Assembly (NCBI GenBank): GCA_964023275.1
Contig: OZ029919.1
Coordinates: 3,555,367-3,619,366, forward strand
Reading direction: 5' to 3'
DNA length: 64,000 bases
Source: Norana najaformis
Lineage: Eukaryota; Annelida; Clitellata; Crassiclitellata; Hormogastridae
The notes below the pieces were generated by a model. That model did no database searches. It saw only the letters and a list, made by a program, of their open reading frames with translations, and was not told the origin of the DNA. How positions within the stretch are numbered: position 1 is the first letter of the stretch; every line of letters begins with the position of its first letter. The translations under genes and the position numbers were made by a program. Below are positions 5,116-51,500 of the stretch, in pieces.

Positions 5116-5121
5116 TTTATT
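5116..5121 (-). terminator. Candidate polyadenylation signal of the antistasin gene
   Basis: AATAAA on the minus strand lies about 265 bases after the stop codon of the tail exon (5387-5385). It is the first strong hexamer I see there, so the 3' UTR probably ends near 5.1 kb. This is inference from position only. Confidence 0.4.
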
Positions 5122-5384: not shown

Positions 5385-5510
5385 TCAGGCTGTAGACTCC
5401 GGAAAATCGTCGATTGGCACCTTTTGAATGTCGCTTGCCTCTACAACGTGCTTCTGGTACGTGGGGGGCTTGCTTTTTTTCTCCTGGAGTGGATTGCTGA
5501 ATTCGACGTC
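5385..5510 (-). other. Cytoplasmic tail exon of the antistasin gene (PPxY)
   Basis: The exon is bounded by tgtattttgcag and a TGA stop. It is too short to be found by ORF length but keeps phase 0 with the donor at 7658. The 41 residues run DVEFSNPLQEKK..., contain PPTY (tail residues 15-18), a PPxY motif typical of WW-domain ligands, and end in an acidic stretch. Hydrophilic composition fits a cytoplasmic tail directly after the transmembrane helix. Confidence 0.75.
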
Positions 5511-5615
5511 CTGCAAAATACACACTTTTTAAGAACAAGGGTACTAATTTCTAAACCATTATACTTAATTGAGCACTACTTAAAATCAATTAGCGTTGGA
5601 AATAATAAAAAAAAA

Positions 5616-5705
<90 letters not shown>

Positions 5706-8700
5706 AACTTATAGGGCACCACTGTAACAGCACTGCTCTCAAGTTGTTGATCTTCCACGCCTGCATCCAGTATGAAATTAAAGTGCATCATGTAAATTCG
5801 TTTATGATAATACCCCGAAAACTTCTATAGCGCCACTGTAATAAACCTCAAGGCATCAGGCGATAGTCGCTGCAAAATCGGTATGTCCATTTCCAGGGTG
5901 GGTTCGGTCGAAAGTTGGAGAGAAATCCGGGTTGCCAATCCATGCAATCGGTAAGAAAGATGGCATCAAGGTGCTATCAGATGACGCTAATCGACTACAT
6001 TTGTGATCATCAAAGTCTGCCGATGTCTTATTCCCAGCAATTAAGACTATAGTGGGTGGTCGGGTCTATCGGGTTACTGGCCTGCGTGCATGCACATTGA
6101 ACAGCCTTCCGGCAACTATTCAGAAAGCCGAGAGTGTCCACGCTTTCAAATAAACTAGCAAAACTCTATACATTATTTCATTCTTAGCACTTGCGCTAAT
6201 AGCTAACACTGTAAAGCATTCTAGTAATTGCTCGCTGCTTATGATGCCATATAAACTGTCGTCATTACCTGTACAATAACAACCGATAAGAAAGGTTGTT
6301 AAGTTGTGTAATATTATTTTAAAATCTGTCGTTTTTTCGTTTAGGAAGTTCAGTTTCACACGATCGAGAACAATAAACCAGAACTTCAATTTATGGCTGC
6401 GAGATATGTAGCCTCTTTAGTGGGTCTACCTACAAAAGGCCTACTTTGGTTCTACACATGAGTGCAGCTATAGTTCAATTCTGGGTGATGAAAAATGCGG
6501 ATTCTCGATTAAGAATCAATGGAAAAATTATTTTCAAGCTTATTGTCGAATCTGCACCATTGCATTCAAAGTGTATCAGATAGTTAAGGCCTTCTGAAGC
6601 TTGTACAGAGGTAGCGTAAGCTTACCTTTCTGATGGCAGCCGAAGGACGATGGTTTCGGAAATAACGAATTGTTACCTATTTTGTTTCAAGACAAACACA
6701 CAAATGATCAACCACTTAAAGAAGGCTTGCATAAAAATTATATTAATATCACTATTTATTTCCATAGATTAACATTTTTATTACGCCCTCGCAGTAAATA
6801 TCAATTAATTTGCTTGCAATCAATAGGTGGCGACACAGTGAATTTGCTACAGATCGTAGAATTACATCGTCATTTGTTGCTTACGTCATTAATTTCCAAA
6901 ACATGAAAGTACTCCTTTTCTCCATTGTTTTTGTGATGACAAGGTATATTTTACAACTCTAAGAAACACGTTTTAACGTTTTGATGTTCAACACCTGCGT
7001 TTTGTGCATGAGTTGTTTAAGAAGCCGTTTATGCTGTGAATTTCTTATAGGCCGTACGCATAATTACTGGGAGCCGTCCGTAGTATAGGCCACGTTTATT
7101 ATTTCTAGGCTAAATAGCTTCTAAAGGGCTAATGTATATACATATATACTACTCGGAAGCACCCAGAATTCGATAATTGTTAAAGAGCTTACAAAACCGA
7201 ATGCGAAGGTTATTTATCTGCTGATTTCGAAAATAGTTATTCGCCCTATACAAAATGGTTACAAATGCATTATAAGCAAGCTGGATACATCTGAATTATT
7301 AATTTCACAAGCTGTCCATGACTAACATCTGAAAATCACTGGTAGCGCTACAGATTCTAACAGGTCACCATCATGCTAACAAAAGGCTAACATAGAATAC
7401 ATGCACTAGAGATGATAGTCTACAAGCACTACAGAAGTAGCCAAAATAATATTTCATAGCACCTAGTAAAATTCAGAAATGCTAGGCTGTCCCCAACAGC
7501 AACGTTATATTATGCAGGACATGTAAAGCATATACAACGAAATTCCTATGATTTTGCTCTACTGTATTACGTTAGCAAAAATTGATTAGATGAAGTCATC
7601 AGCTTAATTGCATGAAATTATAATGGAGCAGAAAAAGGAATGACAAAGTGCTACTTACGAGAATTACTACAGCCGCAGCAACAAACATCACCAGAGCACA
7701 AACAAGCAGTACGATGGCGGTGACAGATAAAGGCCGGTAATCGTCGCACGCTGATCCAACGCATGGGTTGCACTCGCACATTACGCACCCATTACTGTCG
7801 GCTTTCAGTCCGAAGCGACATTCAAGATGGCATTCTGTCTGTGGACAAGGATTGCATTCGCATTTCTCACAACCGTTTGCATCCTTCTTGAATCCATTTG
7901 CGCAGTACATTCGGCATAGAGATCGAGGACATGTTTCACACTGGCATGTGTCACAACCGTTGGCGTCCTTCTTGAACCCGTTCTCACAGTGCATTAGGCA
8001 CTGAGATCGAGGACATGTTTCGCACACGCATGTGTCACAACCGTTGGCGTCCTTCTTGAATCCATTCTCGCAGTGCATCCTGCAAATTGCTGGCGAACAA
8101 GTGTTGCACTCACATGTTGGACAGCCATTTGAGTCGTTCTTGAACCCATTTGCGCAGTACATTCGGCACTGAGATCGAGGACATGTTTCGCACTCGCATG
8201 TGTCACAACCGTTGGCATCCTTCTTGTAGCCATTTTCACAGGCCATTCTACAACGTACCGGTGAGCAAGTGTTACACTTCACATGTTGGGCAGCCATTGG
8301 AGTCGTTTTTGAATCCGTTTACACAGTGCATGAGACACTGAGACCGAGGACATGTTTCACACTGGCATGTGTCGCAACCGTTGGCGTCCTTCTTGAACCC
8401 GTTCTCGCAGTACATTCGGCACTGAGATCGAGGACATGTTTCACACTCGCATGTGTCACAACCGTTGACGTCCTTCTTGAATCCATTCTCGCAGTGCATC
8501 CTGCAAATTGCTGGCGAACATGTGTTGCACTCACATGTTGGACAGCCATTGGAGTCGTTTTTGAATCCGTTTGCACAGTGCATGAGACACTGAGACCGAG
8601 GACATGTTTCACACTGGCATGTGTCACAACCGTTGGCGTCCTTCTTGAACCCGTTCTCGCAGTACATTCGGCATAGAGATCGAGGACATGTTTCACACTC

Positions 8701-11700
8701 GCATGTGTCACAACCGTTGACGTCCTTCTTGAATCCATTCTCGCAGTGCATCCTGCAAATTGCTGGCGAACAGGTGTTGCACTCACATGTTGGACAGCCA
8801 TTGGAGTCGTTTTTGAACCCATTTGCGCAGTACATTCGGCACTGAGATCGAGGACATGGTTCGCACTCGCATGTGTCACAACCGTTGGCATCCTTCTTGA
8901 ATCCATTCTCGCAGTGCATCCTGCAAATTGCTGGCGAACATGTGTTACACTCACATGTTGGACAGCCATTTGAGTCGTTTTTGAATCCGTTTGCACAGTG
9001 CATGAGACACTGAGACCGAGGACATGTTTCACACTGGCATGTGTCGCAACCGTTGGCATCCTTCTTGAACCCGTTCTCACAGTGCATTAGGCACTGAGAT
9101 CGAGGACATGTTTCGCACTCGCATGTGTCACAACCGTTGGCATCCTTCTTGTAGCCATTCTCACAGGCCATTCTACAACGTACCGGTGAGCAAGTGTTAC
9201 ACTCACATGTTGGGCAGCCATTGGAGTCGTTTTTGAATCCGTTTGCACAGTGCATGAGACACTGAGACCGAGGACATGTTTCACACTGGCATGTGTCGCA
9301 ACCGTTGGCATCCTTCTTGAACCCATTTGCGCAGTACATTAGGCACTGAGATCGAGGACATGTTTCGCACTCGCATGTGTCACAACCATTGGCATCCTTC
9401 TTGAATCCATTCTCGCAGTGCATCCTGCAAATTGCTGGCGAACAGGTGTTGCACTCACATGTTGGGCAGCCATTGGAGTCGTTTTTGAATCCGTTTGCAC
9501 AGTGCATGAGACACTGAGACCGAGGACATGTTTCACACTGGCATGTGTCGCAACCGTTGGCATCCTTTTTGAACCCGTTCTCACAGTGCATTAGGCACTG
9601 AGATCGAGGACATGTTTCGCACTCGCATGTGTCACAACCGTTGGCATCCTTCTTGTAGCCATTTTCACAGGCCATTCTACAACGTACCGGTGAGCAAGTG
9701 TTACACTCACATGTTGGGCAGCCATTGGAGTCGTTTTTGAATCCGTTTACACAGTGCATGAGACACTGAGACCGAGGACATGTTTCACACTGGCATGTGT
9801 CGCAACCGTTGGCGTCCTTCTTGAACCCGTTCTCGCAGTACATTCGGCACTGAGATCGAGGACATGTTTCACACTCGCATGTGTCACAACCGTTGACGTC
9901 CTTCTTGAATCCATTCTCGCAGTGCATCCTGCAAATTGCTGGCGAACATGTGTTGCACTCACATGTTGGACAGCCATTGGAGTCGTTTTTGAATCCGTTT
10001 GCACAGTGCATGAGACACTGAGACCGAGGACATGTTTCACACTGGCATGTGTCACAACCGTTGGCGTCCTTCTTGAACCCGTTCTCGCAGTACATTCGGC
10101 ATAGAGATCGAGGACATGTTTCACACTCGCATGTGTCACAACCGTTGACGTCCTTCTTGAATCCATTCTCGCAGTGCATCCTGCAAATTGCTGGCGAACA
10201 GGTGTTGCACTCACATGTTGGACAGCCATTGGAGTCGTTTTTGAACCCATTTGCGCAGTACATTCGGCACTGAGATCGAGGACATGGTTCGCACTCGCAT
10301 GTGTCACAACCGTTGGCATCCTTCTTGAATCCATTCTCGCAGTGCATCCTGCAAATTGCTGGCGAACATGTGTTACACTCACATGTTGGACAGCCATTTG
10401 AGTCGTTTTTGAATCCGTTTGCACAGTGCATGAGACACTGAGACCGAGGACATGTTTCACACTGGCATGTGTCGCAACCGTTGGCATCCTTCTTGAACCC
10501 GTTCTCACAGTGCATTAGGCACTGAGATCGAGGACATGTTTCGCACTCGCATGTGTCACAACCGTTGGCATCCTTCTTGTAGCCATTCTCACAGGCCATT
10601 CTACAACGTACCGGTGAGCAAGTGTTACACTCACATGTTGGGCAGCCATTGGAGTCGTTTTTGAATCCGTTTGCACAGTGCATGAGACACTGAGACCGAG
10701 GACATGTTTCACACTGGCATGTGTCGCAACCGTTGGCATCCTTCTTGAACCCATTTGCGCAGTACATTAGGCACTGAGATCGAGGACATGTTTCGCACTC
10801 GCATGTGTCACAACCATTGGCATCCTTCTTGAATCCATTCTCGCAGTGCATCCTGCAAATTGCTGGCGAACAGGTGTTGCACTCACATGTTGGGCAGCCA
10901 TTGGAGTCGTTTTTGAATCCGTTTGCACAGTGCATGAGACACTGAGACCGAGGACATGTTTCACACTGGCATGTGTCGCAACCGTTGGCATCCTTTTTGA
11001 ACCCGTTCTCACAGTGCATTAGGCACTGAGATCGAGGACATGTTTCGCACTCGCATGTGTCACAACCGTTGGCATCCTTCTTGTAGCCATTCTCACAGGC
11101 CATTCTACAACGTACCGGTGAGCAAGTGTTACACTCACATGTTGGGCAGCCATTGGAGTCGTTTTTGAATCCGTTTGCACAGTGCATGAGACACTGAGAC
11201 CGAGGACATGTTTCACACTGGCATGTGTCGCAACCGTTGGCATCCTTCTTGAACCCATTTGCGCAGTACATTAGGCACTGAGATCGAGGACATGTTTCGC
11301 ACTCGCATGTGTCACAACCGTTGGCATCCTTCTTGAATCCATTCTCGCAGTGCATCCTGCAAATTGCTGGCGAACAGGTGTTGCACTCACATGTTGGACA
11401 GCCATTTGAGTCGTTTTTGAATCCGTTTGCACAGTGCATGAGACACTGAGACCGAGGACATGTTTCACACTGGCATGTGTCGCAACCGTTGGCATCCTTC
11501 TTGAACCCATTTGCGCAGTACATTAGGCACTGAGATCGAGGACATGTTTCGCACTCGCATGTGTCACAACCATTGGCATCCTTCTTGAATCCATTCTCGC
11601 AGTGCATCCTGCAAATTGCTGGCGAACAGGTGTTGCACTCACATGTTGGGCAGCCATTGGAGTCGTTTTTGAATCCGTTTGCACAGTGCATGAGACACTG

Positions 11701-14700
11701 AGACCGAGGACATGTTTCACACTGGCATGTGTCGCAACCGTTGGCATCCTTTTTGAACCCGTTCTCACAGTGCATTAGGCACTGAGATCGAGGACATGTT
11801 TCGCACTCGCATGTGTCACAACCGTTGGCATCCTTCTTGTAGCCATTCTCACAGGCCATTCTACAACGTACCGGTGAGCAAGTGTTACACTCACATGTTG
11901 GGCAGCCATTGGAGTCGTTTTTGAATCCGTTTGCACAGTGCATGAGACACTGAGACCGAGGACATGTTTCACACTGGCATGTGTCGCAACCGTTGGCATC
12001 CTTCTTGAACCCATTTGCGCAGTACATTAGGCACTGAGATCGAGGACATGTTTCGCACTCGCATGTGTCACAACCGTTGGCATCCTTCTTGAATCCATTC
12101 TCGCAGTGCATCCTGCAAATTGCTGGCGAACAGGTGTTGCACTCACATGTTGGACAGCCATTTGAGTCGTTTTTGAATCCGTTTGCACAGTGCATGAGAC
12201 ACTGAGACCGAGGACATGTTTCACACTGGCATGTGTCGCAACCGTTGGCATCCTTCTTGAACCCGTTCTCACAGTGCATTAGGCACTGAGATCGAGGACA
12301 TGTTTCGCACTCGCATGTGTCACAACCGTTGGCATCCTTCTTGTAGCCATTTTCACAGGCCATTCTACAACGTACCGGTGAGCAAGTGTTACACTCACAT
12401 GTTGGGCAGCCATTAGAGTCGTTTTTGAATCCGTTTGCACAGTGCATGAGACACTGAGACCGAGGACATGTTTCACACTGGCATGTGTCGCAACCGTTGG
12501 CATCCTTCTTGAACCCATTTGCGCAGTACATTAGGCATTGAGATCGAGGACATGTTTCACACTCGCATGTGTCACAACCATTGGCATCCTTCTTGAATCC
12601 ATTCTCGCAGTGCATCCTGCAAATTGCTGGCGAACAAGTGTTACACTCACATGTTGGACAGCCATTTGAGTCGTTTTTGAATCCGTTTGCACAGTGCATG
12701 AGACACTGAGACCGAGGACATGTTTCACACTGGCATGTGTCGCAACCGTTGGCGTCCTTCTTGAACCCATTTGCGCAGTACATTAGGCACTGAGGTCGAG
12801 GACATATTTCGCACTCGCATGTGTCACAACCGTTGGCATCCTTCTTGAATCCATTCTCGCAGTGCATCCTGCAAATTGCTGGCGAACAGGTGTTACACTC
12901 ACATGTTGGACAGCCATTTGAGTCGTTTTTGAATCCGTTTGCACAGTGCATGAGACACTGAGACCGAGGACATGTTTCACACTGGCATGTGTCGCAACCG
13001 TTGGCATCCTTCTTGAACCCGTTCTCACAGTGCATTAGGCACTGAGATCGAGGACATGTTTCGCACTCGCATGTGTCACAACCGTTGGCATCCTTCTTGT
13101 AGCCATTCTCACAGGCCATTCTACAACGTACCGGTGAGCAAGTGTTACACTCACATGTTGGGCAGCCATTGGAGTCGTTTTTGAATCCGTTTGCACAGTG
13201 CATGAGACACTGAGACCGAGGACATGTTTCACACTGGCATGTGTCGCAACCGTTGGCATCCTTCTTGAACCCATTTGCGCAGTACATTAGGCACTGAGAT
13301 CGAGGACATGGTTCGCACTCGCATGTGTCACAACCGTTGGCATCCTTCTTGAATCCATTCTCGCAGTGCATCCTGCAAATTGCTGGCGAACATGTGTTAC
13401 ACTCACATGTTGGACAGCCATTTGAGTCGTTTTTGAATCCGTTTGCACAGTGCATGAGACACTGAGACCGAGGACATGTTTCACACTGGCATGTGTCACA
13501 ACCGTTGGCATCCTTCTTGAACCCGTTCTCACAGTGCATTAGGCACTGAGATCGAGGACATGTTTCGCACTCGCATGTGTCACAACCGTTGGCATCCTTC
13601 TTGTAGCCATTCTCACAGGCCATTCTACAACGTACCGGTGAGCAAGTGTTACACTCACATGTTGGGCAGCCATTGGAGTCGTTTTTGAATCCGTTTGCAC
13701 AGTGCATGAGACACTGAGACCGAGGACATGTTTCACACTGGCATGTGTCGCAACCGTTGGCATCCTTCTTGAACCCATTTGCGCAGTACATTAGGCACTG
13801 AGATCGAGGACATGTTTCGCACTCGCATGTGTCACAACCATTGGCATCCTTCTTGAATCCATTCTCGCAGTGCATCCTGCAAATTGCTGGCGAACAGGTG
13901 TTGCACTCACATGTTGGGCAGCCATTGGAGTCGTTTTTGAATCCGTTTGCACAGTGCATGAGACACTGAGACCGAGGACATGTTTCACACTGGCATGTGT
14001 CGCAACCGTTGGCATCCTTTTTGAACCCGTTCTCACAGTGCATTAGGCACTGAGATCGAGGACATGTTTCGCACTCGCATGTGTCACAACCATTGGCATC
14101 CTTCTTGTAGCCATTCTCGCAGGACATTCGGCAACGAACTGGTGAGCAAGTGTTGCATTCACATGTTGGGCAGCCATTGGAGTCGTTTTTGAAACCGTTT
14201 GCACAGTACATCGCGCATCTCACTGGTGAACATGATTCGCACTCACATATATCGCAACCTTTGGCATCCTTCTTGAATCCATTCTTGCACTGCATCCTGC
14301 AATTTGTTGACGTGCACGGATTGCATTCACAAGTTCGGCAACCATTGGAGTCCGTTTTGAATCCGTTTGGACAGTGCATTGCGCACGTCACTGGGGAACA
14401 TGTTTCACACTCACAAATATCGCAGCCGTTGGCATCCTTCTTGAATCCATTCTCACATTGCATTCTGCACGTGGCTAGCGGGCATTGATTGCATTCACAT
14501 GTACGACAACCATTGGAGTCCGTTTTGAATCCGTTTGGACAGTGCATTGCGCACGTCACTGGGGAACAAGTTTCACACTCACAAATATCGCAACCGTTGG
14601 CATCCTTCTTGAATCCATTCTCACATTGCATTCTGCACGTGGCTAGCGGGCACTGATTGCATTCACATGTACGACAACCATTGGAGTCCGTTTTGAATCC

Positions 14701-17700
14701 GTTTGGACAGTGCATTGCGCACGTCACTGGAGAACATGTTTCACACTCACAAATATCGCAGCCGTTGGCATCTTTCTTGAATCCATTCTCACATTGCATT
14801 CTGCACGTGGCTAGCGGGCATTGATTGCATTCACATGTACGACAACCATTGGAGTCCGTTTTGAATCCGTTTGGACAGTGCATTGCGCACGTCACTGGGG
14901 AACATGTTTCACACTCACAAATATCGCAACCGTTGGCATCTTTCTTGAATCCATTCTCACATTGCATTCTGCACGTGGCTAGCGGACATTGATTGCATTC
15001 ACATGTACGACAACCATTGGAGTCCGTTTTGAATCCGTTTGGACAGTGCATTGCGCACGTCACTGGGGAACATGTTTCACACTCACAAATATCGCAACCG
15101 CTGGCATCCTTCTTGAATCCATTCTCACATTGCATTCTGCACGTGGCTAGCGGGCACTGATTGCATTCACATGTACGACAACCATTGGAGTCCGTTTTGA
15201 ATCCGTTTGGACAGTGCATTGCGCACGTCACTGGAGAACATGTTTCACACTCACAAATATCGCAACCGTTGGCATCTTTCTTGAATCCATTCTCACATTG
15301 CATTCTGCACGTGGCTAGCGGGCATTGATTGCATTCACATGTACGACAACCATTGGAGTCCGTTTTGAATCCGTTTGGACAGTGCATTGCGCACGTCACT
15401 GGAGAACATGTTTCACACTCACAAATATCGCAGCCGTTGGCATCCTTCTTGAATCCATTCTCACATTGCATTCTGCACGTGGCTAGCGGGCATTGATTGC
15501 ATTCACATGTACGACAACCATTGGAGTCCGTTTTGAATCCGTTTGGACAGTGCATTGCGCACGTCACTGGGGAGCATGTTTCACACTCACAAATATCGCA
15601 ACCGCTGGCATCCTTCTTGAATCCATTCTCACATTGCATTCTGCACGTGGCTAGCGGGCATTGATTGCATTCACATGTACGACAACCATTGGAGTCCGTT
15701 TTGAATCCGTTTGGACAGTGCATTGCGCACGTCACTGGGGAACATGTTTCACACTCACAAATATCGCAACCGTTGGCATCCTTCTTGAATCCATTCTCAC
15801 ATTGCATTCTGCACGTGGCTAGCGGGCATTGATTGCATTCACATGTACGACAACCATTGGAGTCCGTTTTGAATCCGTTTGGACAGTGCATTGCGCACGT
15901 CACTGGGGAACAAGTTTCACACTCACAAATATCGCAGCCGTTGGCATCCTTCTTGAATCCATTCTCACATTGCATTCTGCACGTGGCTAGCGGGCATTGA
16001 TTGCATTCACATGTACGACAACCATTGGAGTCCGTTTTGAATCCGTTTGGACAGTGCATTGCGCACGTCACTGGGGAACAAGTTTCACACTCACAAATAT
16101 CGCAACCGCTGGCATCCTTCTTGAATCCATTCTCACATTGCATTCTGCACGTGGCTAGCGGGCATTGATTGCATTCACATGTACGACAACCATTGGAGTC
16201 CGTTTTGAATCCGTTTGGACAGTGCATTGCGCACGTCACTGGGGAACAAGTTTCACACTCACAAATATCGCAACCGTTGGCATCCTTCTTGAATCCATTC
16301 TCACATTGCATTCTGCACGTGGCTAGCGGGCATTGATTGCATTCACATGTCGGGCAACCATTGGAGTCCGTTTTGAATCCGTTTGGACAGTGCATTGCGC
16401 ACGTCACTGGGGAACATGTTTCACACTCACAAATATCGCAACCGTTGGCATCCTTCTTGAATCCATTGTCACATTGCATTCTGCACGTGGCTAGCGGGCA
16501 TTGATTGCATTCACATGTCGGGCAACCATTGGAGTCCTTCTTGAAACCATTGTCGCAGTTCATTAAGCACTGGATCGGACGGCACGTAGTTGTTCCTGAA
16601 ATCGCGATAAAGTTCTTTTTAGCAAAGAGAACCTATGTATTTATGTATGACATTGTATGTATGTATTTAATGTAGTCTTGTGCGGTCTTTTTGAGATTTT
16701 GAGTGAGGGCAATATGGTATGCGTTAGTTTAGTGGCTGTCGTTGTTGGTTTAGTTTTTGGCCGTAATGTTGTTCGTGTATTGCCTAATGTAATGGACTAG
16801 AGTTTTATTATTATTATCATCATTGTCATCTTTGTTGTAATTGTGAATATTATAATATTACTTTTTATTCGAAAATCGTTTTTATTTAGCGCCTTAATCC
16901 CGTGAGACGTTTAAGACAATGGTGCTGAACAATTTTTAATTATGGGTGATTTTGTGACCGTCTTCTGATGCATGTACTTGCTAAACTGTGAGTGTATTGC
17001 TTGTCAGTGTGACCGTGTTCGTTTTCCGATGATATTGCCAGTATGGAATGGTTCCACACCATTTTACATCCCCTTGTGGGGGGTTGCTGGCCTAATCTAC
17101 AAGTATGTTACCCAGAGATTTTTGTCGGTAAGCGATCTCACATCCTGTCACGGAGAGTACACCCCCTTTAACGAAACAATCGAAACTAATCTTAGAATTT
17201 CTATAGCCCCATTATAACAATTCACTACAGGCATCAATCGATGCCACTCCAAAACAGATTCGCAATACGGTCATTTTCAAGGGTCAATCCATTGAGAAAG
17301 AATGCAGTCTGAGGAGGATAAGCATGCTGAAACAAAAACGTCTTGAGAACGGAGACTATAAAGACTTAGCAGTGCGAACGTATTGTGGAAGCGTATTCCA
17401 AAGCCTTGGCTTAGCAACAGCAGAAGCATTGCTGCCAAGAGCAGTATGCACTTGATGGAACGGCAATAGAAAGGAAATCAGAGGATTATAGGAACACTGG
17501 AGGAATAAGTAAGTGAGTAAGTAAGTACGTAATGCCTTTGTTAACACGCCATATGTCCATCGACTGAGCGAGGAATCGTAGGCGTAAATAAACACATTTT
17601 GAAGGCACTTTAGCTATACAGCAAGTTGTCCAGGCCAAGCTAATTTCAAGCTAAGTTCTTAAGTATGAACATGGAAATAATGAGCGAGAATGTGGTTGAA

Positions 17701-18556
17701 ATCTGAAATGAACTAAATTGTTGCATGCCTTTACAGTCGTTGTATTTACTGCATGATTAGCAGACACTGATATAATATGTCTAGTTTGATTTGCTTAGAC
17801 TAGAAATCGTATGAATTTGTTTTCCGTTATCGGAAAGCAGCTCTTTTCATTTAGCGCCAGTATCTCATTAGATGCATCAAGCAATGACACTGAATAATTT
17901 TGGATCACGGATTGCCATGTCGAATTATTATACGTGTGCTTGCAAAACTGTGCATGTGTAGATCTGAAAATGTAGGAATGAGATTTTGTTTTTTTCTTGA
18001 AGAGATACATCTACGATATGACTTTCAACCAGCGATGGGATATGCGATATGGGATGATGTGGTGGTGCGTGGCTGTTTGGGGTTTGTGTGACACAATGGA
18101 CAAGAACTGTGAGAATTGGCTTCTTAGCCCTAGTCAGTCGGCTACCAACATTTCTTGTCACGTTTTTTAAAAATATTTTCCACAAAAATCACGTTTTTAA
18201 CGTTTCTGTTTTTCACGAAACGTTTTTTAACGTTATTATTTTTCTACAAAAAAAATTAATTGTTAACGTTTCTTTTTGGCTCAAATATTTTTTATCTATG
18301 CACTATTGTTTTGTTTTTGCAGTCTGGTAAGCAACTGTCAATGATCGTGGAATGCTTTCTTCTTCTGGTGAGACTTCAATAATTTACGCTGCTGAACAAC
18401 AACATTATCGTGAAATGGCCACAGGGCTGGCTGTCAGATACTAATGATGATGATAATGAGTATGCAAGTTTTGAGTTTTTAGCCAATCTTTGACTTCTTA
18501 GTGTGCACGTGCGCTTTCAGATGCAAATAGAGACTACTTATTTACTTTATACTGTT

Positions 18557-18607
<51 letters not shown>

Positions 18608-18679
18608 TTGATGATGATGACGACGATGGTGATGGTGCTGGTGATGATGATGATGGTGGTGGTGGTGATGATGATGGTG

Positions 18680-18711
<32 letters not shown>

Positions 18712-19381
18712 GGTGGTGGTGATGATGGTGATAACGACAATGATTATCACAGTGAGGGGTCGTTCATAAATGACGTCCGCAAAAAATTACCCACTTTGGA
18801 CCCCTTTCGCCTTTTCCGCATTTGTCCACATTTGACATTGTCATCTCATTCACCCTCTGCGGACACCTGCACTCCAGCGGAACATTAAGGCCTAGATTAG
18901 GCTACCACGTTGATCTTGCATGACTAACTGTTTTGCTGGGTGGGGTACTTTGATACTGTTGCGTCCAGCAAAGGGGCTTTAATAAGCTCCAACGCAGTGA
19001 AGACTGTTTGCTGTCTGACTGAAGTTGCTGTCTAAGTCACAGGTTGTAGTGAAATAACCACGTACCAAACTTAGATGCGGACGTCGACATTGGGTATGAC
19101 CCCTTTGTCCTCAGTTGTCCGTATTTGAGTGACCCTTCCGTCCCCTTGTTTGCGGACATCCTTAATGAACGACTCCTAATCTGATTTAAAATTTGGGTTT
19201 TCTGGAACAATAGCGTATTCGCCTCTCGCAAGGCATTCAGTTAATTTCAGTTCAACGGCTTTAGTCAATACCGACTGATTGAGGGAATTCGCTCACCATT
19301 GGGACTCTGTGCATCGGTGGACGGCGACAAGCTGAGTGCCCCAAGAACTGTCAGAGTGGTAAGGACGAGACAAGACTTCAT
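5385..19381 (-). CDS. Giant membrane-anchored antistasin-repeat protein
   Basis: Three coding exons join in phase. Exon 19381-19297 gives ATG and 28 residues of signal peptide (MKSCLVLTTL.., likely cut after TDA) and ends AATG|gtgag. Exon 16595-7659 begins after ttcag, supplies GA to complete a Gly codon, and encodes 105 antistasin-like domains, then a transmembrane helix (about 22 residues, VTAIVLLVCALVMFV..), ending CTC|gtaag. Exon 5510-5385 follows ttttgcag in phase 0 and encodes a 41-residue cytoplasmic tail and stop. Corrected for one extra T at about 8278, the product is about 3,048 residues. Each domain has six Cys (C-x2-C-x4-C-x3-C-x10-C-x2-C). The antistasin family (MEROPS I15) inhibits serine proteases; inhibition here is inferred. 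Known antistasin proteins have few domains, and CRIM1 has TM plus only a handful, so this differs in scale. The acceptor at 19409 suggests a 5' UTR exon upstream. Exon phases make the model firm; physiological role is unknown. Confidence 0.88.
5604..5702. repeat. (AAT)n microsatellite
   Basis: Nearly perfect trinucleotide array of about 31 units inside the last intron (5511-7658) of the antistasin gene. The poly-Asn and poly-Leu frames here are artefacts. Confidence 0.95.
5850..6270 (+). mobile_element. Non-LTR retrotransposon C-terminal remnant
   Basis: Around 6085-6150 the plus strand reads TLNSLPATIQKAESVHAFK then stop. This matches the common end of reverse-transcriptase ORF2 proteins (W/x-N-S-L-P..I/V-R..x-S-x..F-K). 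The following 3' UTR (TGTAAAGCA...GCTTATGATGCC.TATAAA) resembles the tandem tail at 21.87-22.01 kb. It lies in the last intron of the antistasin gene, antisense to it. Confidence 0.6.
8170..11087 (-). repeat. 1,428-bp tandem duplication within the array
   Basis: Sequence at 8319-9584 recurs at 9747-11012, offset 1,428 bp = 17 x 84. Alternate-frame translations are identical across it, and rare variants such as the TTACACAG change are shared at the left ends. The copies diverge near 8165/9593 (CGGCAC against AGGCAC) and 9660/11088 (ATTTTCAC against ATTCTCAC), which sets the approximate limits. It is a recent unequal exchange or an assembly effect. Confidence 0.8.
8272..8283 (-). other. Single-base insertion: frameshift in the array
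   Basis: Here the plus strand reads TTACACTTCACATG; the equivalent site in other domains, including the duplicate near 9706, reads TTACACTCACATG. The extra T shifts the reading frame, giving a stop at 8272 after domain 99. The upstream frame resumes for six more domains, the transmembrane helix and the tail. It is not in a homopolymer run. It may be a sequencing error, an allele, or a real truncation that would release a soluble protein. Confidence 0.85.
17175..17475 (-). mobile_element. Non-LTR retrotransposon 3' end
   Basis: On the minus strand the sequence reads AVAKPRLWNTLPQYVRTAKSL, the typical SAVAxPRLWNSLP..VR.A.SL end of a reverse-transcriptase ORF. It continues into a UTR with GGCATCGATTGATGCC and GGGGCTATAGAAATTC. 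It lies in the first coding intron of the antistasin gene, in the same orientation. Confidence 0.75.
17505..17600 (-). mobile_element. (TTAC)n-tailed repeat
   Basis: On the minus strand a segment CTCGCTCAGTCGATGGACAT followed by ATGGCGTGTTAACAAAGGC ends in TTACTTAC repeats. The same module occurs at 20095-20155 and 32315-32400. It is probably the 3' end of a short retroposon. Confidence 0.55.
18555..18740. repeat. (GAT)n microsatellite
   Basis: Trinucleotide array of ATG/GAT with GGT variants inside the antistasin intron. Poly-Met and poly-Ser frames are artefacts. Confidence 0.95.
18756..19176. mobile_element. MITE with GGAGTCGTTCAT terminal inverted repeats
   Basis: The left end GGGGTCGTTCATAAATGACG with TCCGC and the right end (reverse complement) GGAGTCGTTCATTAAGGATG with TCCGC form terminal inverted repeats of about 25 bp around 421 bp of non-coding DNA. 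A second copy, in opposite orientation, is at 38182-38567 and shares interior GGG.ACTT.GAT..T and CCAGC.AAGG motifs. Confidence 0.7.
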
Positions 19382-19582
19382 CTTGATGACGTTATACCAT
19401 TCGCACTCCTGCAATTGAAAAGAATTTCAGTTGTACTGCTCAGGTATCTGCGTATTTCTGTAGGCCTATTTGAATCTCTTCAATTCGCCTTAACAACTAA
19501 AAAAAGAGTTGGTGATTGTGATTAGGCGAGGGCGCTGCTGAAGTACAAACATAACGCCGCCACCAACAACAACAACTACAAG

Positions 19583-23879: not shown

Positions 23880-24420
23880 ATTAATGCATGCATGGCTGCA
23901 TACATACATACGTAAATACATACGTACGTAAGTACATACATACTATATAATCCATACATACATATATACATACGAACATACATGCATACATACATATACA
24001 CATGCATACATACATATATACATACGAACATACATACATACATACATATACACATGCATACATACATATATACATACGAACATACACACACATACACATG
24101 CATACATACATACACATGCATGCATACATATACATACATACATATATACATACATTCTATATACATACATACATATATACATACATTCTATATACATACA
24201 TACATATATATATACATACATTCTATATACATATATACATACATTCTATATACATACATGCATACACACATACATACATTCTACATACATACATACATAT
24301 ATACATACATCCATATACACATGCATGCATATATACGTATACGTACGTACGTACATACATATATACAAGCATACACACATGTACAACACGTATACATATA
24401 TACATATAGACATATGTAAG
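23880..24420. repeat. (TACA)n microsatellite, long
   Basis: About 540 bp of imperfect CATA/TACA tetranucleotides with CATG, CGTA and ATATATA interruptions. Tyr/Met/Cys-rich and His/Ile/Tyr-rich frames are artefacts. Confidence 0.95.
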
Positions 24421-27279: not shown

Positions 27280-27470
27280 TTAACAACATACATACATAAT
27301 TCATACATACATAATACATACATACATGCATACATACATGCATACATACATGCATACATACATGCATACATACATGCATACATACATAGGCCTACATGCA
27401 TGCATAAATACATAGGCCTACATGCATGCATACATACATATACACATACATACATGCATACATACATCTG
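27280..27470. repeat. CATACATG minisatellite
   Basis: Imperfect array of CATACATACATG units with AGGCCTACATGCATG variants. Confidence 0.9.
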
Positions 27471-35600: not shown

Positions 35601-37172
35601 TTTTATCATTTTGGCTAACTTTAAATTTTTATTTGTATTCTGTTGGCACCATTCAGTTTTGTGCGTCAGATTTTTGGGACTAAATTTTCAGTTATTGTTC
35701 ATTAACATTTTGCTTGTTTACAGGCCAGTTTCTAAACAGGACCTCAGCAATAGTCTGTATCATCAGATTCGCATTTCTGTGTGACTGTGTGTGTTACAGA
35801 TTTTCGTGGCAATGATAATGATCTTTTATTACTTTGAGTCAGATTTGATTAGTTTACAGTTTTGTCATGATTACGTTTCTTCAGCGCTTCTGGAACTGTT
35901 TACGAAGCCAGAGATACGGCCAACAACAGCGTAGTAGCGATCAAGAAAATGGATCTCATTCGACAGCAGAAGAAGGAACTGATCATCAGCGAGATTGAAG
36001 TCATGCGAGAGTGCAAGCATCCGAACGTCGTCAACTACATCGAGAGCTTCTTGGTAAAGGACCGACTTTGGATTGTCATGGAGTACCTCGAGGGAGGCTG
36101 TCTCACTGACGTCGTCACGGAAACCGTTCTGTCCGAGGGCCAGATGGCGGGCATCTGCCAGAGTTGTCTCGAAGCGCTCGCATTTCTGCATAGCAACGAA
36201 GTGATACATCGCGACATGAAGAGCGACAACGTCTTACTGGGGATGAATGGTGAGGTGAAGCTCACGGATTTTGGGTTTTGTGCTCAGATTACGCCAAATC
36301 ATGATAAGCGTAGCACGATGGTTGGTACGCCGTACTGGATGGCACCTGAGGTTGTAGCACGGTAAGTTGGTGCACTTTAGAAGTTAATTTTCATGGTAAA
36401 ATCTGCTAAAGATTTTTTATTATTGTTATTAAGAAAATTTTTAATGTGCACATAGTCACGCAGAAATGTGAATTAGAGGTGTGGGGATGAAGTAGTGCTC
36501 ACTGGTTGAGCTGTTATGTTGTGATGGTGAGTTAGCAGTTTTGAGGCTTCCCTGAAATGGTCTGTGTGTAAGGACATTGAAATAAATAAATTAGAATTGA
36601 TTTAAATAAATGCAAATAAATAAATATTGAAATAAGTAAGTATAATTACAGAAGTAACAAATAAATAATTTTATGTTTGCAATAACTAAGAAATCAAGCT
36701 AACATAATGAACATCTGGAGTTTAGAAATCATTGAAACAAGTAAATAAATTAAACTAATAAATAAACTAATCAATTAAATTGAAGTAAATAATTAAATAC
36801 ATACAAATTGAAACATAAAAATTTAGAAATAAACAGAATTTTGTTTCTGACAGCAAAAAGTACAGCTATAAGGTGGACATCTGGAGCTTAGGAATCATCG
36901 TAATCGAGATGATGAACGGTGAACCGCCTTACATGAACGAGTCACCCGTTCGAGCTTTGTATCTGATCGCCACACACGGCAAACCAGAAATTGAGAATGC
37001 GCAAAAATTCTCGAAAGAACTGAATGCTTTTCTTGGCTGTTGCCTCGAGATGAATGTTGAAAATCGCATGTCTGCTGCAGAACTCTTGGGTCATCCGTTC
37101 TTAGCGAAAGCAGAAAACCTATCCAGTCTCCGGCGAAATATAATCACTGCTCGGCGGGTTAAGGATGGTTGA
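32602..37172 (+). CDS. PAK: p21-activated kinase (PAK), complete
   Basis: Six exons join in phase: 32602-32822, 33403-33709, 34485-34608, 35096-35159, 35885-36361, 36854-37172, giving 503 residues. Residues 36-51 are the CRIB motif for Rac/Cdc42 binding ([16 protein letters not shown]). Residues 74-100 ([13 protein letters not shown]..) resemble the group I autoinhibitory segment. The Ser/Thr kinase domain covers about 230-490: glycine loop LGSGASGTVY (236-245), catalytic Lys259, Glu275, HRD 347-349, DFG 367-369, activation-loop Thr383 in [13 protein letters not shown]. In PAKs, GTPase binding relieves autoinhibition and the kinase acts on cytoskeletal and MAPK targets. Compared with PAK1 (about 545 residues) the N-terminus is short, with no Nck-binding PxxP start and no recognisable PIX-binding stretch, as in the PAK3/MAX-2-type forms of flies and worms. 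The CRIB has Val for Phe and Ala for the usual Gly. Intron 1 ends only about 30 bp after a retrotransposon tail. A possible acceptor (TGTGCAG) at 32596 hints at a 5' UTR intron. Confidence 0.95.
32870..33018. repeat. Foldback (hairpin) element in PAK intron 1
   Basis: AACTGCATGTACAATACTAA at the left and its inverse TTAGTATTGTACTTGCAGTT at the right enclose further complementary AT-rich sequence (AATAAAAGATAA with TTATCTTTTATT, and AGTAACTATTATTAGTAATA with inverted partners). Nearly the whole 149 bp can fold on itself, as in a MITE or foldback element. Confidence 0.7.
33140..33372 (+). mobile_element. Retrotransposon 3' end (tail B) in PAK intron 1
   Basis: It matches 3085-3330 over CATTTCTCTCAGCTTAAA, CTTCTGGCAACCGGACTTGG, TTTGGACAA.CCC and GTGAATAAGCTGGTG. 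It ends about 30 bp before the acceptor of PAK exon 2 at 33403. Confidence 0.65.
33745..33990 (-). mobile_element. Non-LTR retrotransposon 3' end in PAK intron 2
   Basis: On the minus strand near 33960-33880 it reads [19 protein letters not shown], a decayed SF.Y..P..WN.LPL.IR motif of ORF2. The UTR GAGGCGCTTTATAAATCTC follows, ending in AATTACAATTACAA. Antisense to PAK. Confidence 0.65.
35300..35548. mobile_element. Retrotransposon tail fragments in PAK intron 4
   Basis: 35350-35405 contains GGTGCTATATAAATGCTTG before TTACATTACAT, a common LINE end. 35483-35545 repeats the tail B piece CTTGGTTCTTGACGTGGCAT, CTTTGGACAACCC. Confidence 0.5.
36575..36835. repeat. AAATAAAT-rich low-complexity DNA
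   Basis: Degenerate AAAT tetranucleotide array in the last PAK intron; no coding potential. Confidence 0.7.
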
Positions 37173-45500: not shown

Positions 45501-48500
45501 TTACTACTATTAAACAGACATTTATAACACGCACAATTAACAACAGTCTCAAAGGCATGTGCAATGACCCTAAAAAAGTCCTAACACAAAACAGAGTAAT
45601 ATCATGGTTTATAGATGTAACACACATGTCGTTACATAATGCTGTTCAAGACCAGCTCAAAAGCAATATGTTCACATAATCTATACAGAAGTCAGCATTA
45701 TGTACATAAATGTCCAAACACATACATGTATGCAGTACACATATACTGACAGAAGGAATGACTGACTGAGACAGAGAGATTGTCTATCTGAGGTTCACGT
45801 CTCATTCCAAAACTGATCGGCATCAAATGTTATCTTTTCACCAGTCAATGGAACTGTGTGTACAAAAATAAAATAAATAACTAAAAATTTCCATTATTGT
45901 AATTGTAATCAGAAATTTGTAGAACACAGCTTCAAAAGAAACTAATCATGGGTTCTCTCTCCCTGTGATCTACCAAGATTTTCCATACCTGAACACTTTT
46001 TAGTGTTCTGACGTAGGATTCAAACGCATCGATAGTCTCCCGTATAAAACTGTGAACATCTTCGGCTTGTTGGTCACCTGCGCCATCAATCTCACTCTGC
46101 AATCCCCTACAATCACAAAATATTATTAACATTCACTGACCATCAACAGCATGAGCAAACAAATGACCTTTGCAAACACAACTACCTTTCATACCGACGT
46201 CCAAAACTACACTATATAAAGAGCACATGTCCCCTATGGAAGGTAGGGAAGGCGCTTCCCTAAACAATTCTACAGGGGAGGCACTCATATCCTGCCCTTC
46301 AGCCCTTGAGCCAGCACTGGACAAATACTAAGGTACTGGACATAGGGCCAGCGCATTGAAGGACTTTTCATTTGTTTCCCATCGTATGCCAGTACGAAAC
46401 TCTACAGCTTATGGTACTAGGAAATTCTGCCGCTTGATCAAGTATGCATAAAAAACTAGTCCATGGTCATCACAAAGAGTCTGCTAAGAAGGTTCAAACC
46501 CGCAAGCATGCCACCTGAGCAACCACTGTGTCACGCATGATGGTCTATTCAAAAGTATACGAAGAAAAATATAAGAAAAATACATAAAAATTCCAATGCT
46601 AGTATTAAAACACAAAAAGATCCTTCCTTAATTTATATTAATCATAAAAAATTAACAAGATCAAAAATCATTAACAAACTAACAAATTAAGTTAACAAAT
46701 TAACAAACATCTTTCTTAATTTAAATAATCATAAACAAAATTAACAAACAAAACAAAGCTTACTAAAACCTGACATCCAAAGTAGCCATCTTATCAGGAA
46801 CGAAAGAGATATCTAGCAAACAAGAATTAGGTACACGTTTATTCTCTAAAACACGTGAGAGGTCTTCTTACCTGTACCAGGCAAGTTTATCTGCAAGATA
46901 CTGCATCAGTCGTTTTTGACCTCTTTCTGTGGTGCAGCATATCTCCTGCAGCAGAACCTTTCTTTGTAGGTGTAACCATCCCAATTTGATTTTCAGTCGT
47001 TGTATATCCTCTGCTTGTTTGACATTAGTTTTTGCCACAACATCCTGTGTCTGCAGAATTTCTGTTTTCAGTGCAGCTAGACGCACACAGTTTAGAACAG
47101 AAATTGTAGGTTTGTGGAGAAAGAGAAGCATACCCTCCAACGATATGTACTTTCCGATTTCATCATCAAACAGAAATTCACTGGGCACAACATGCACGAA
47201 GTGACTTTTCTGGTAGCGTCTCAGTTCAGTCAGACGATACTGAAACAACTCCTTCTTCACCAGCAAGAAATTGTACTTCTGCTCCACTTCATCGTACGTC
47301 CTGTCCAGGGCTGGCGACGGAAACCGGCTAAGCTGGTTCCTTATTTTCTCCATGCAGTCCTGAAGCCTGCTGACGTCTTTGTCCAATTCAAGAATTTCAC
47401 ACTCCAGCTGAAGCTCTTGCTCTAGGTCTGGGCTAGCTGACTTTGTCCTGAGAAGTTTCTTGATCTGGCAATCACTCAAGCCATCGCATGGATCAATAAA
47501 GACATGACCGTTGATGATTTTTTGTTCCGTCATTGCCATCTCCTTTTTGAAGACTTCCTTGTACGCGGCAAGGGCCTCCACAGGAACGTCTGCGGGGATC
47601 TCGGTGCAGTCGCTTGTGCCGACAACCGACTCGTCTTTGCCAGCTGGCTCATCGTAGTCTCGCGACATTTCTGTCCACCCTGAGGAGATGTTACTCCACT
47701 CGTCGGCTATCTTACCACGTCGTCGGCGACCCAATCGGCTGAAAACAGATGGTTTGCTGGAAGAGGATGGCTCTGCAAGTTCTGAAGAACCTACTGATTC
47801 ACATTTATCACGCATTTCCAGCACATTCCCAAGCTGACTCTCTTGCATTTCCATTTCAGTCCTTGCAACTACTGGCATCTTGGAGTTAGAAGGGATTTCA
47901 CTGGTTGGGAGAATCTGTAGTAAATTATCTGGCAAAATGACCTCTGACTCGGTGACCTTTTGTGAATTGGCCTCAAGCTGGTAGATGTTTTGCGTGTCTT
48001 CGGTAACCAAGTCATAGGCATTTCCAGTGCAGAAAACATCTTTGAAAAAGTCTGCAGCTCGGACTTTACGATTATTTACTGTGCAAGAGCCACTACTGGA
48101 ATTAGAAGGCTCAGAAGGCCAATCATTAAACTCACTTTTCATTTCAAGCAATTTGCCAGTTCCCTGAGAAGTCGAGTGTTCATCTGCACCAGCATTAATC
48201 CCAAGCACAGTTTGCTCGCTCTCCGGTGAAGCACACTTCTCCTCAGCCGGCTGATTGATGGCACTAGGTGGACTGTACCTGCCACTGACTTCCATTGTAT
48301 TCCTTGCTTTATCCATACCTTCATCTTCACCCGAGTGGCTACATGTCATCATTGCACTGGATTCTGTAACTGCTAGATCTGATGCATAATGACTTCCGGT
48401 AAGATCTGCATTTTCTCCTTCATTAACTGTTACATTCTGTACATCTACCAGTTTCCCAACATTAGCCAGATTGCTTTCCTTACTCTCTTGGTCACCAGGG

Positions 48501-51500
48501 TTTTTCAAGTTTTCTTTACTACTTTCATCTCCTCTCTGCCACTTTTCTGATTTCTCTGTGATACTGTCCACATTTTCTTTTGTGGTACAACGCAGCTCAT
48601 TGGCTGCTGCATCTTTCTCCTCACTCTCTGGACATTTCAACCGCAAATCTAGACTTGCTTCATCGGTGGAATAAGGCACGCCACAACTAACCCGGCCTTG
48701 GTAGCTGCTGTCACTGAATTCCATCAATGCCAGTGCTGCACTTGCCGATTTCGGCTGATCTGTAGTCACTAAAGTATTATCACTTGCATTGACAAACACA
48801 GAAGAAAAGAGTGACTTGGTTCTCTGGACTGAAGTCAACAACGAGACCGATGACTTGAAGTTATCTGACTTCGTAGATAAATCCGACGAGGCGTCATCAC
48901 GTCTTGGATTAGATCCATCAGCTGGTTGCAACTTGCCAGTTAGTTCTGCGTCACTTAAACTGCCACCCAAGTCATCTGAACTTAATTTTGACAACACCTT
49001 AAAATTGCCACCAAAACTCATTGTCTTAGAATCACTTTTCTCACTCAACCCATCTGCTGAATGTGCACTTCTGTTACTCTCACTTGTCTTCGAATGTTCA
49101 TAAGGGCTGCTATCTTCTGTCTCCAAATTTATAGTCAATTTATTAATAACAAGTTCTTTGTACTGTTCAAGCTCTTTATCAAATTCTGTATCTGAATAAG
49201 GCGAAAATGATACAAAGTCACCCTTTTGCATTTCATTATTTAAGGTCTTCACGAATGTCTGTTGTTCAATGCCTTCCTCTGATGCTGTCAACAGGTTTAG
49301 GCTGGACATTTCAGCAGAAGTATCAGTCGAAGTAGCATTATCCATAAGCATCTGGCTATCACTGTCAACATCTGATACTTCAACGTCTGATTTCAGTTTA
49401 TCTTCTAAGAGTGACTTCAGACTTCGGATCGACTTGAGAATGTCAGCTCGGATCTCAGTATTCGATCTTGGTGCAACGGTGAACGGCTCTTCTGCATAAC
49501 AAGACTGATAAGATATCGACCCATCTCTTTCTCCAACCTCATCCGCAAGTTTTTTCTCGTCACTAGGTGATATTTCATCAGCCACAGAGCATAACGAGGT
49601 CGCAAAGACACAGTTCTTTTCAGGTCTGTTGGCATCAGAAGCTTTCAAGCTACCGTGTAGATCTGTTCCCATGCAAGATGACTTTGGCAAAGTACTTTCT
49701 AAATGACTCTCACTGTCCTTATTGTCTCCTACATCTTCCATATGTATCACAAGTGATCCATCCTCTTGTTCTCCTTCAGCATCTGTACAATACAAAGCAA
49801 AGTCCTCGGTTGCAAGTGTCCCTTCCTCAGTCACTCGTGATAAAGCGGCAGCATTTGATTCAACCTGTTCAAAAGCACAGTCTGTGCTTTTGTCGTCGTT
49901 CACAGTTTTTGATTTGGTATCCATTTCTTCATTCACATTACAGTGAACGTCATCTGTAGGCATCAAATTCTGTTGTAAGACAGCGTTGGAGTATGCCGTC
50001 AGTGACTCAACACCTTCAGGACAAAGTGTTTCAGTAGAATGTGAACTTCTACTACAGTCACCCTCTTTTACTTTTGTGTGTTCCTTCATATTATTATGAC
50101 TTAAATGACGTTTTTCTTCATGCTCTCTCCTGTGCAAATTCTTTTCTTTACCTCGACTGTGCTGCCTTTCTTTAGAACTATTACTCCCTTGAGATTGAAT
50201 TTCTGATTTCCTTATTTCTTTGTGATTATTCTTCTCATTATCAGTTTCTACAGATTTCTTAGCACTTTTGCTTGGCAACATTCTGCTATGTTCTTTATTA
50301 TCATGCTGCCTCACACATGATTTGCTATTTTTATCAACTCCCGATGAATGCATTTTTAAGCTCTTCTCTTTCTGTAAAGCCATGTCCGTTGATTCATGAG
50401 ATTTGGCATCATGCATATTAGGTTTCCTTCTGCCCTTTTCCCTTTTAGTTTCATCTATGCATTTCAAGTTAACGTCTTTGTTATTATGTAAAGACTTCAC
50501 CTGATCAGGTCTTTCATCCTTACGTGTATGTGAGCTCGGTAAATGCGATTCTTTACAGCGTTTCCTCTCATCGGTTCCCACAACTTTTTCATCCATCGAA
50601 AGCTGACGTTTCTTCATGCATTCTTCATTTGGTGTCTTCTTCGGTACATCCGAGTCTGAATTTTCTGTTTCTTTATTCACTGCATCTTTACGAACCGAAG
50701 ATACAGCTGAGTCTTTACTGTTCCTATCAAGCAGTGGTTCAACATGTGATTTTCGACCTGACTTGGTGGCATCGTGAGTTCTAGAGTGGTCAAGATGATG
50801 GATATCTCCTCTCGATGAATGATCTCTTTTACTATGAATGTAATCTTTTGTGTGATGCCTCTTAGAAGAATTGGTTCTAGAATGAGATCTACGATCTCTT
50901 TCGTTCTTTCTACTTTGATCAACAGTTGTTTTCACTTGATCTTGTTTATCACAATTTTTGTGATCAGGGCCAATCTCGCTATCAAGGTTCTTCTCTATCA
51001 AAGCAGGAGACAGGCCATCAATGCTGGAGTGACACTTTTGCTGCTGCTGTTCTGATGTTCTCGATTTCGGAGTAAGGTGACTTCGTTTTCCGAGCACCCT
51101 GTTCAAGCCACAAAGCATTCCAGCTTCCATATTTGCACTTCTTTCTCCTTCAAAGCTTTCATTGTGTAGACTCAACAGTAAATCTTCTAAAATATCATCG
51201 GCTGAAGCATGTCTACTCTTAGACCCTTGAGATCTTACCTGATTTTGAGGCCACGGAGGCTTGGTAACATCAACTGTCTTGTCTTGATACTTTCCATCCA
51301 AGTACCAGTCTTTGGTTTTAGAAGCAGTGTCTTCCCAATTATTGTTTTCCTTTGAAACAACGTTTGCCTTTGATGTGACCCCACCTGAAGTGCGTCTCGA
51401 CTTGATGATGCTGGCCACAGCATCGGCAGCATCAATAACTAAGGGCACATCATCACAAACATTATCAGGTCTTGACAGCTGTCGTCGAACAGACAATTCC

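Follow-up and report, generated by a model that had tools for sequence, protein, structure and literature searches.

We suggest that a gene on the minus strand of the stretch analysed here (64,000 nucleotides of the annelid Norana najaformis, contig OZ029919.1, positions 3,555,367 to 3,619,366; "the window") encodes a membrane-anchored protein built from 105 tandem units of the antistasin family. The array itself, its conservation as protein and the hydrophobic helix that follows it are direct observations. With one surplus base left out, the product appears to be a type I membrane protein of ~3,065 residues, with an extracellular part that consists of 105 six-cysteine modules in an unbroken row. 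Its best explanation, held at slightly less than even confidence, is a membrane-tethered multivalent trap for serine proteases; this reading is closely trailed by one in which the modules form a cable with a structural or metal-binding role. In the assembly, which has 608,420,607 bases in 17 contigs, the window falls within contig 7.

An array of 105 antistasin-type units conserved as protein

The array occupies two open frames of a single large exon. The upstream stop-to-stop frame of 2,786 codons holds 98 intact units by a strict six-cysteine pattern, with a unit step of exactly 28 codons in 97/97 successive steps, and the downstream frame holds six further intact units by the same pattern. 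Together with unit 99 (8352-8268), which is interrupted by the surplus base, the total is 105. The Pfam profile PF02822 arrives at the same total with 99 and 6 stretches, the extra upstream one being unit 99. With scores of 2651.7 and 178.4 bits against a cut-off of 21.2, this profile places the units in the antistasin family, and no other profile exceeds its cut-off in either open frame. An earlier note on this stretch, made from the letters alone, was right to count 105 antistasin-like domains and one surplus base (an A at 8278-8279 that is absent from an otherwise identical sister block), and the profile search that it proposed bears out the family assignment. Unit counts given below as parts of 104 omit unit 99. 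All six cysteines are retained at the family spacing in 104/104 uninterrupted units; cysteine makes up 21% of the array and is spelled by 338 TGT and 286 TGC codons.

Two measures bear on whether the array is read as protein. Mean column entropy is 0.41 bits at each of the first two codon positions and 0.99 bits at the third. The ratio of nonsynonymous to synonymous differences (pN/pS), in uncorrected counts over unit pairs that share ancestry, is 0.25 for all 104 units (pS 0.66) and likewise for the 51 distinct units; it amounts to 0.31 for units 1-27 and to 0.23 for those from 30 onward. Despite these limits of the counts, the direction is clear, in that the array frame has been kept as protein. 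Chance or satellite DNA as the source of the array is rejected by the same codon-position bias and pN/pS, and the length of the 2,786-codon frame and the complete retention of the cysteines, in both of their codons, likewise speak against chance.

Gene model and membrane anchor

The gene model has four coding exons on the minus strand with compatible phases at every junction; exons 1, 3 and 4 are predictions.

19297..19381, minus strand: predicted exon 1, coding part; signal peptide MKSCLVLTTLTVLGALSLSPSTDAQSPN, 28 codons from the ATG at 19381
7659..16595, minus strand: exon 2, 8,937 bases; whole array, partial unit and transmembrane helix
7659..7727, minus strand: transmembrane helix SVTAIVLLVCALVMFVAAAVVIL, with a Kyte-Doolittle mean of 3.36 over its best 19 residues
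6626..6676, minus strand: predicted exon 3, 51 bases, phase 0; basic juxtamembrane segment VTIRYFRNHRPSAAIRK
5385..5510, minus strand: predicted exon 4, phase 0; 41-residue cytoplasmic tail DVEFSNPLQEKKSKPPTYQKHVVEASDIQKVPIDDFPESTA and stop
5116..5121, minus strand: poly-A signal AATAAA, 263 bases past the stop

Exon 1 ends in the donor ATG/GTGAGC in phase 1, which is the phase in which exon 2 starts behind its acceptor TTTCAG/G; exon 2 ends in phase 0 at the donor CTC/GTAAGT. Upstream of exon 1, a candidate acceptor TTGCAG for an exon of the 5' untranslated region ends at 19409. The short exons are supported by their splice signals, by phase and by a plausible product, in which a helix would be followed by a basic segment. 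Of the three open YAG...GTRAG stretches of 30-300 bases in this region, exon 3 alone has a whole number of codons, and it can be skipped without loss of phase. By codon usage, exon 4 is favoured, with 6.25 bits as compared to a 95% point of 4.16 and a 99% point of 12.61 in random open frames of 123 bases; for exon 1, the score is undecided (1.54; 95% point 4.44).

The anchored model also has its weaknesses. Exon 3 has a codon-usage score of -3.62, under the random median of -1.92, and the helix stretch in frame is likewise not favoured (-2.78; random median for 84 bases -2.99). In the terminal stretch, 13 open frames of at least 30 codons lie behind a YAG, i.e. exon 4 and 12 others. Finally, the assembled letters taken literally would give a 98-unit array that ends in CPTCEV and has no anchor.

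The exon model of the earlier note stands in so far as signal peptide, array, helix and tail join in phase, and the positions that it gave as limits, 5385 and 19381, coincide with the stop and start codons of the gene model; it was incomplete, because it likely missed the additional coding exon at 6676-6626. The single-pass type I architecture that it proposed also agrees with our data: by hydropathy and predicted exons, there is a signal peptide, one C-terminal helix and, if exon 3 is used, a basic segment on the cytoplasmic side of the helix. The tail contains the sequence PPTY, which we take to be a motif of the PPxY type with a possible link to Nedd4-type ligases. In the introns, open stretches of at least 40 codons on the minus strand, which were counted for cysteine rather than scanned with Pfam, hold at most 4 Cys, and further small exons may be present there. 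An AAT trinucleotide array (5601-5702) lies in the intron ahead of exon 4 and an ATG trinucleotide array (18557-18732) inside intron 1.

The anchor appears to be particular to this gene among the sequences compared. A 19-residue hydropathy scan detected no C-terminal transmembrane helix in ten eukaryotic database relatives, and among 133 candidates scored in the genome itself, in a search that did not seek the anchors of other antistasin genes singly, there was no second anchor or tail at E < 0.06. Outside the gene, six anchor/tail matches extend beyond query residue 45, all with E >= 0.06.

The presumed reactive site follows an ordered pattern

Two zones of the array differ in their higher-order repeats.

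14149..16584, minus strand: zone N, units 1-29; higher-order repeat of two units (168 bp)
7764..14148, minus strand: zone C, units 30-105; higher-order repeats of three units (252 bp) and six units (504 bp)

Identity between units 1-27 is 0.97 at lag 2 and 0.64 at lag 1; between units 30-98, it is 0.90 at lag 3, 0.91 at lag 6 and 0.71 at lag 1. The residue after the second cysteine, which we assume to be the P1 position of a reactive-site loop, follows the same zones. At this position, the aligned inhibitors have Arg (hirustasin and antistasin), Lys (bdellastasin) or Met (guamerin). The 104 units have Arg in 48, Leu in 41, Ala in 14 and His in one, and unit 99 has Leu at the presumed P1; the neighbouring residue is Met in 103/104 units. 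Arg at the presumed P1 is spelled by three codons (AGA, AGG, CGA). In zone N, Arg alternates with Ala from unit 2 to unit 29, while zone C has the order Leu-Leu-Arg 15 times in units 31-75 and then a more Arg-rich mix. In a 16-unit array exon on contig 5, the residues at the presumed P1 are more mixed, as judged by eye from the translation.

The array was compared with solved structures by sequence and by predicted fold. At E < 0.01, the sequence matches in the PDB are leech protease inhibitors only, i.e. antistasin, bdellastasin, hirustasin and gigastasin. The best of five AlphaFold2 models of two units has a mean predicted local distance difference test score (pLDDT) of 81.9, and the first 8 of its 18 Foldseek matches are antistasin-family inhibitors, some of them in complex with a protease; the fits have a root-mean-square deviation of 1.5 over 32 columns to bdellastasin with trypsin and 1.2 over 29 columns to hirustasin. 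A six-unit AlphaFold2 model had a pLDDT of 47.6 and was not used. The presumed loop aligns with those of solved inhibitors. MEROPS family I15 is a class of serine-protease inhibitors, and its domain has ten cysteines and an N-terminal subdomain; the array units, as six-cysteine modules with a constant 28-residue step, do not have that ten-cysteine organisation. I15 is named, as context, in the available part of a paper on leeches (PMC7191736).

A multivalent protease trap or a structural cable

We prefer the protease trap because the units belong to the antistasin family, have the presumed loop and display ordered P1 classes. In this model, each module would present a canonical reactive-site loop right after its second cysteine, and the cell would carry a dense, disulfide-hardened brush able to capture many serine proteases together. 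The Arg units (48/104) would have trypsin-like targets, and the Leu (41) and Ala (14) units chymotrypsin- or elastase-like ones. The anchor would confine inhibition to the cell surface, and the PPTY tail could allow uptake of bound cargo via Nedd4-type ligases.

A somewhat less probable, but serious, alternative is that the modules are rigid, disulfide-rich spacers at the cell surface with roles in adhesion, mucus or matrix attachment, or metal binding, and that the inhibitor loop is a leftover. The cysteine share of the array fits such a role, as do the 25 NDS sequons in the 104 units and the net balance of K+R-D-E = -74, and homogenised repeats fit a function driven by length. There are also precedents: in its available part, a paper on the byssus of Perna viridis describes an antistasin-like protein with similar repeats and proposes metal binding (PMC6508894), and antistasin-like domains are described in shell-matrix proteins of Lottia in the part available of a second paper (PMC3374290). 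However, a pure spacer would need neither the ordered higher-order pattern of three P1 classes nor the near-invariant Met after P1, features that shared descent of the units could also explain.

Growth of the array and the surplus base

Because the frame break and the copy number are questions separate from function, the likelihoods that we attach to the alternatives below overlap with those of the two functional readings. The relevant features are:

8184..9663, minus strand: 17-unit block, second tandem copy; step 1,428 bp
8278..8279, minus strand: surplus A (one of two A); frame break in unit 99

Unequal exchange, by two, three, six or seventeen units at a time, may have lengthened the array. 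The 17-unit step is marked by a run of 1,385 identical bases at lag 1,428, in which 9663-8279 copies 11091-9707; the identity picks up again past the surplus base and continues through unit 100, with 84/84 positions identical in the unit that comes after the interrupted one. It is conceivable, though we consider it unlikely, that this duplication is a misjoin and that the true array has ~88 units. The run stops precisely at the surplus base, and its exactness stands against a mean unit identity of only 0.71-0.91 across lags 1-24 in zone C. On the other hand, a recent unequal exchange would look alike, the array has further exact runs of 857 and 593 bases at other lags, and the finding holds even with 88 units.

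The surplus A is the sole difference over ~1.48 kb between the two otherwise identical 17-unit blocks. Positions 8283-8275 read TGTGAAGTG, as opposed to TGTGAGTG in the sister unit, and an in-frame TAA follows at 8274-8272. The extra base would be either an assembly error or a fresh insertion in one copy after a very recent block duplication. Splicing past it via in-unit GTGAGT-type donors and TTTGCAG acceptors was considered and rejected by reasoning, as the phases appear to leave the frame unrestored. That the frame break is real, with a secreted 98-unit array lacking an anchor or an incipient pseudogene (in which a stop in an exon ahead of introns would also invite nonsense-mediated decay), has the A in the assembly in its favour but is improbable, given that a consensus error is plausible at the sole difference in ~1.48 kb of identical blocks, that the two open frames meeting at this base otherwise span exon 2 stop-free, and that the downstream frame carries six intact units on into the helix.

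Returning to the protease trap, we speculate, with considerable doubt, that the brush has a zoned specificity (outer Arg/Ala, middle Leu-Leu-Arg, Arg-richer near the membrane) and that its copy number shifts by exact block duplication, in which case individuals would differ in length and protease mix.

Other features of the window and the genome

Elsewhere in the window, an open frame of 3,720 codons (46868-58030, minus strand) is without a Pfam match; only one relative was obtained for its residues 3200-3720 (P0013; 56% identity over 59%), and the frame includes three copies of a 39-base unit at 98% identity (52236-52351), which read as RAADTSNKDSLLG-like repeats. A protein kinase exon (Pkinase, E 1.8e-48), which we take to be PAK-like, lies at 35871-36365 on the plus strand. 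Long arrays of tetranucleotides (CATA/ACAT) and of trinucleotides (AAT, ATG) are present at 23899-24414, 27286-27467, 2170-2260, 5601-5702 and 18557-18732. Scans of the window with Rfam (gathering threshold) and for tRNAs gave no match. On contig 15, four loci (L028-L031, at ~412 kb and ~570 kb) have COX1-like fragments with in-frame stops and TGA codons, which are probably old nuclear copies of mitochondrial DNA.

The genome has other antistasin exons. Among the best 150 of 345 candidates scored genome-wide, the ten stretches fetched include array exons on contigs 5, 10 and 16 (L009, L010, L011 and L012 on contigs 5, 16 and 10), the longest with 16, 14, 13, 11 and 9 units as counted by a six-cysteine pattern. 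They differ from the array described here in their irregular spacing and diverse units. The two exons on contig 10 are alike across long blocks, as judged by eye, and a further locus (L015, 1443-2003) has in one frame a Kunitz-like stretch, also identified by eye, followed by an antistasin-like unit.

Comparison with known systems

The antistasin unit is already well known; 105 copies of it with a membrane anchor are unusual. A protein search among relatives of 0.55-1.75 times the query length (7,988 candidates scored) gave 12 matches, two of which are bacterial (P0011, P0012) and lack the six-cysteine motif, leaving ten eukaryotic relatives. Eight of the 12 were scanned with Pfam (all except P0004, P0010, P0011 and P0012), and these have 29, 21, 13, 13, 12, 11, 11 and 4 antistasin stretches. 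The 105 units are thus ~3.6 times the largest count among the relatives scanned. The highest count belongs to a zonadhesin-like protein of Anneissia japonica (P0002, 3,665 aa; 30% identity across 51% of the query), which differs in having 8 VWC stretches and no hydrophobic stretch above threshold. The 21 stretches are those of a Patiria miniata protein (P0001, 1,726 aa), which differs by 15 WAP stretches and by an N-terminal position of its sole hydrophobic stretch. These two proteins exceed the ceiling of about a dozen domains that the earlier note had assumed for known members of the family.

The leech inhibitors antistasin (1skz), hirustasin (1bx7), bdellastasin (1c9p), gigastasin (5ubm) and guamerin (3bg4) resemble the array units in their six-cysteine module, in its spacing and in the loop that follows the second cysteine. 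However, their chains have 48 to 137 residues, as compared to 105 modules and a membrane anchor here, and the N-terminal subdomain, which presumably belongs to the leech inhibitors, is missing from the array units. CRIM1 is a transmembrane protein with few antistasin-type domains together with IGFBP and VWC domains; going by this general description, the present gene appears to fall outside the CRIM1 family, as the frames of exon 2 show only PF02822 above cut-off and exons 1, 3 and 4 are too short for such domains. The byssal protein of Perna viridis is similar in its internal six-cysteine repeats of 30 residues and >20% Cys, and differs in being short (236 in the paper's table) and, in the available part of the paper, in having no anchor mentioned (PMC6508894). 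As far as the available parts of two further papers go, a nemertean study notes that antistasin-like proteins of animals that do not feed on blood are thought to serve in immunity, with an unclear role (PMC10674772), and a paper on snails provides context (PMC12297450).

If expressed as read, the protein described here would contain more antistasin units than any of the proteins with which it was compared (eight scanned with Pfam), and, set against ten relatives, it alone would have a C-terminal anchor as judged by hydropathy. It would exemplify protease inhibition by a polyvalent polymer at the surface and would provide a scaffold of disulfide-rich repeats in a defined order, as well as a clear case of a coding tandem array that grows block-wise under selection at the protein level.

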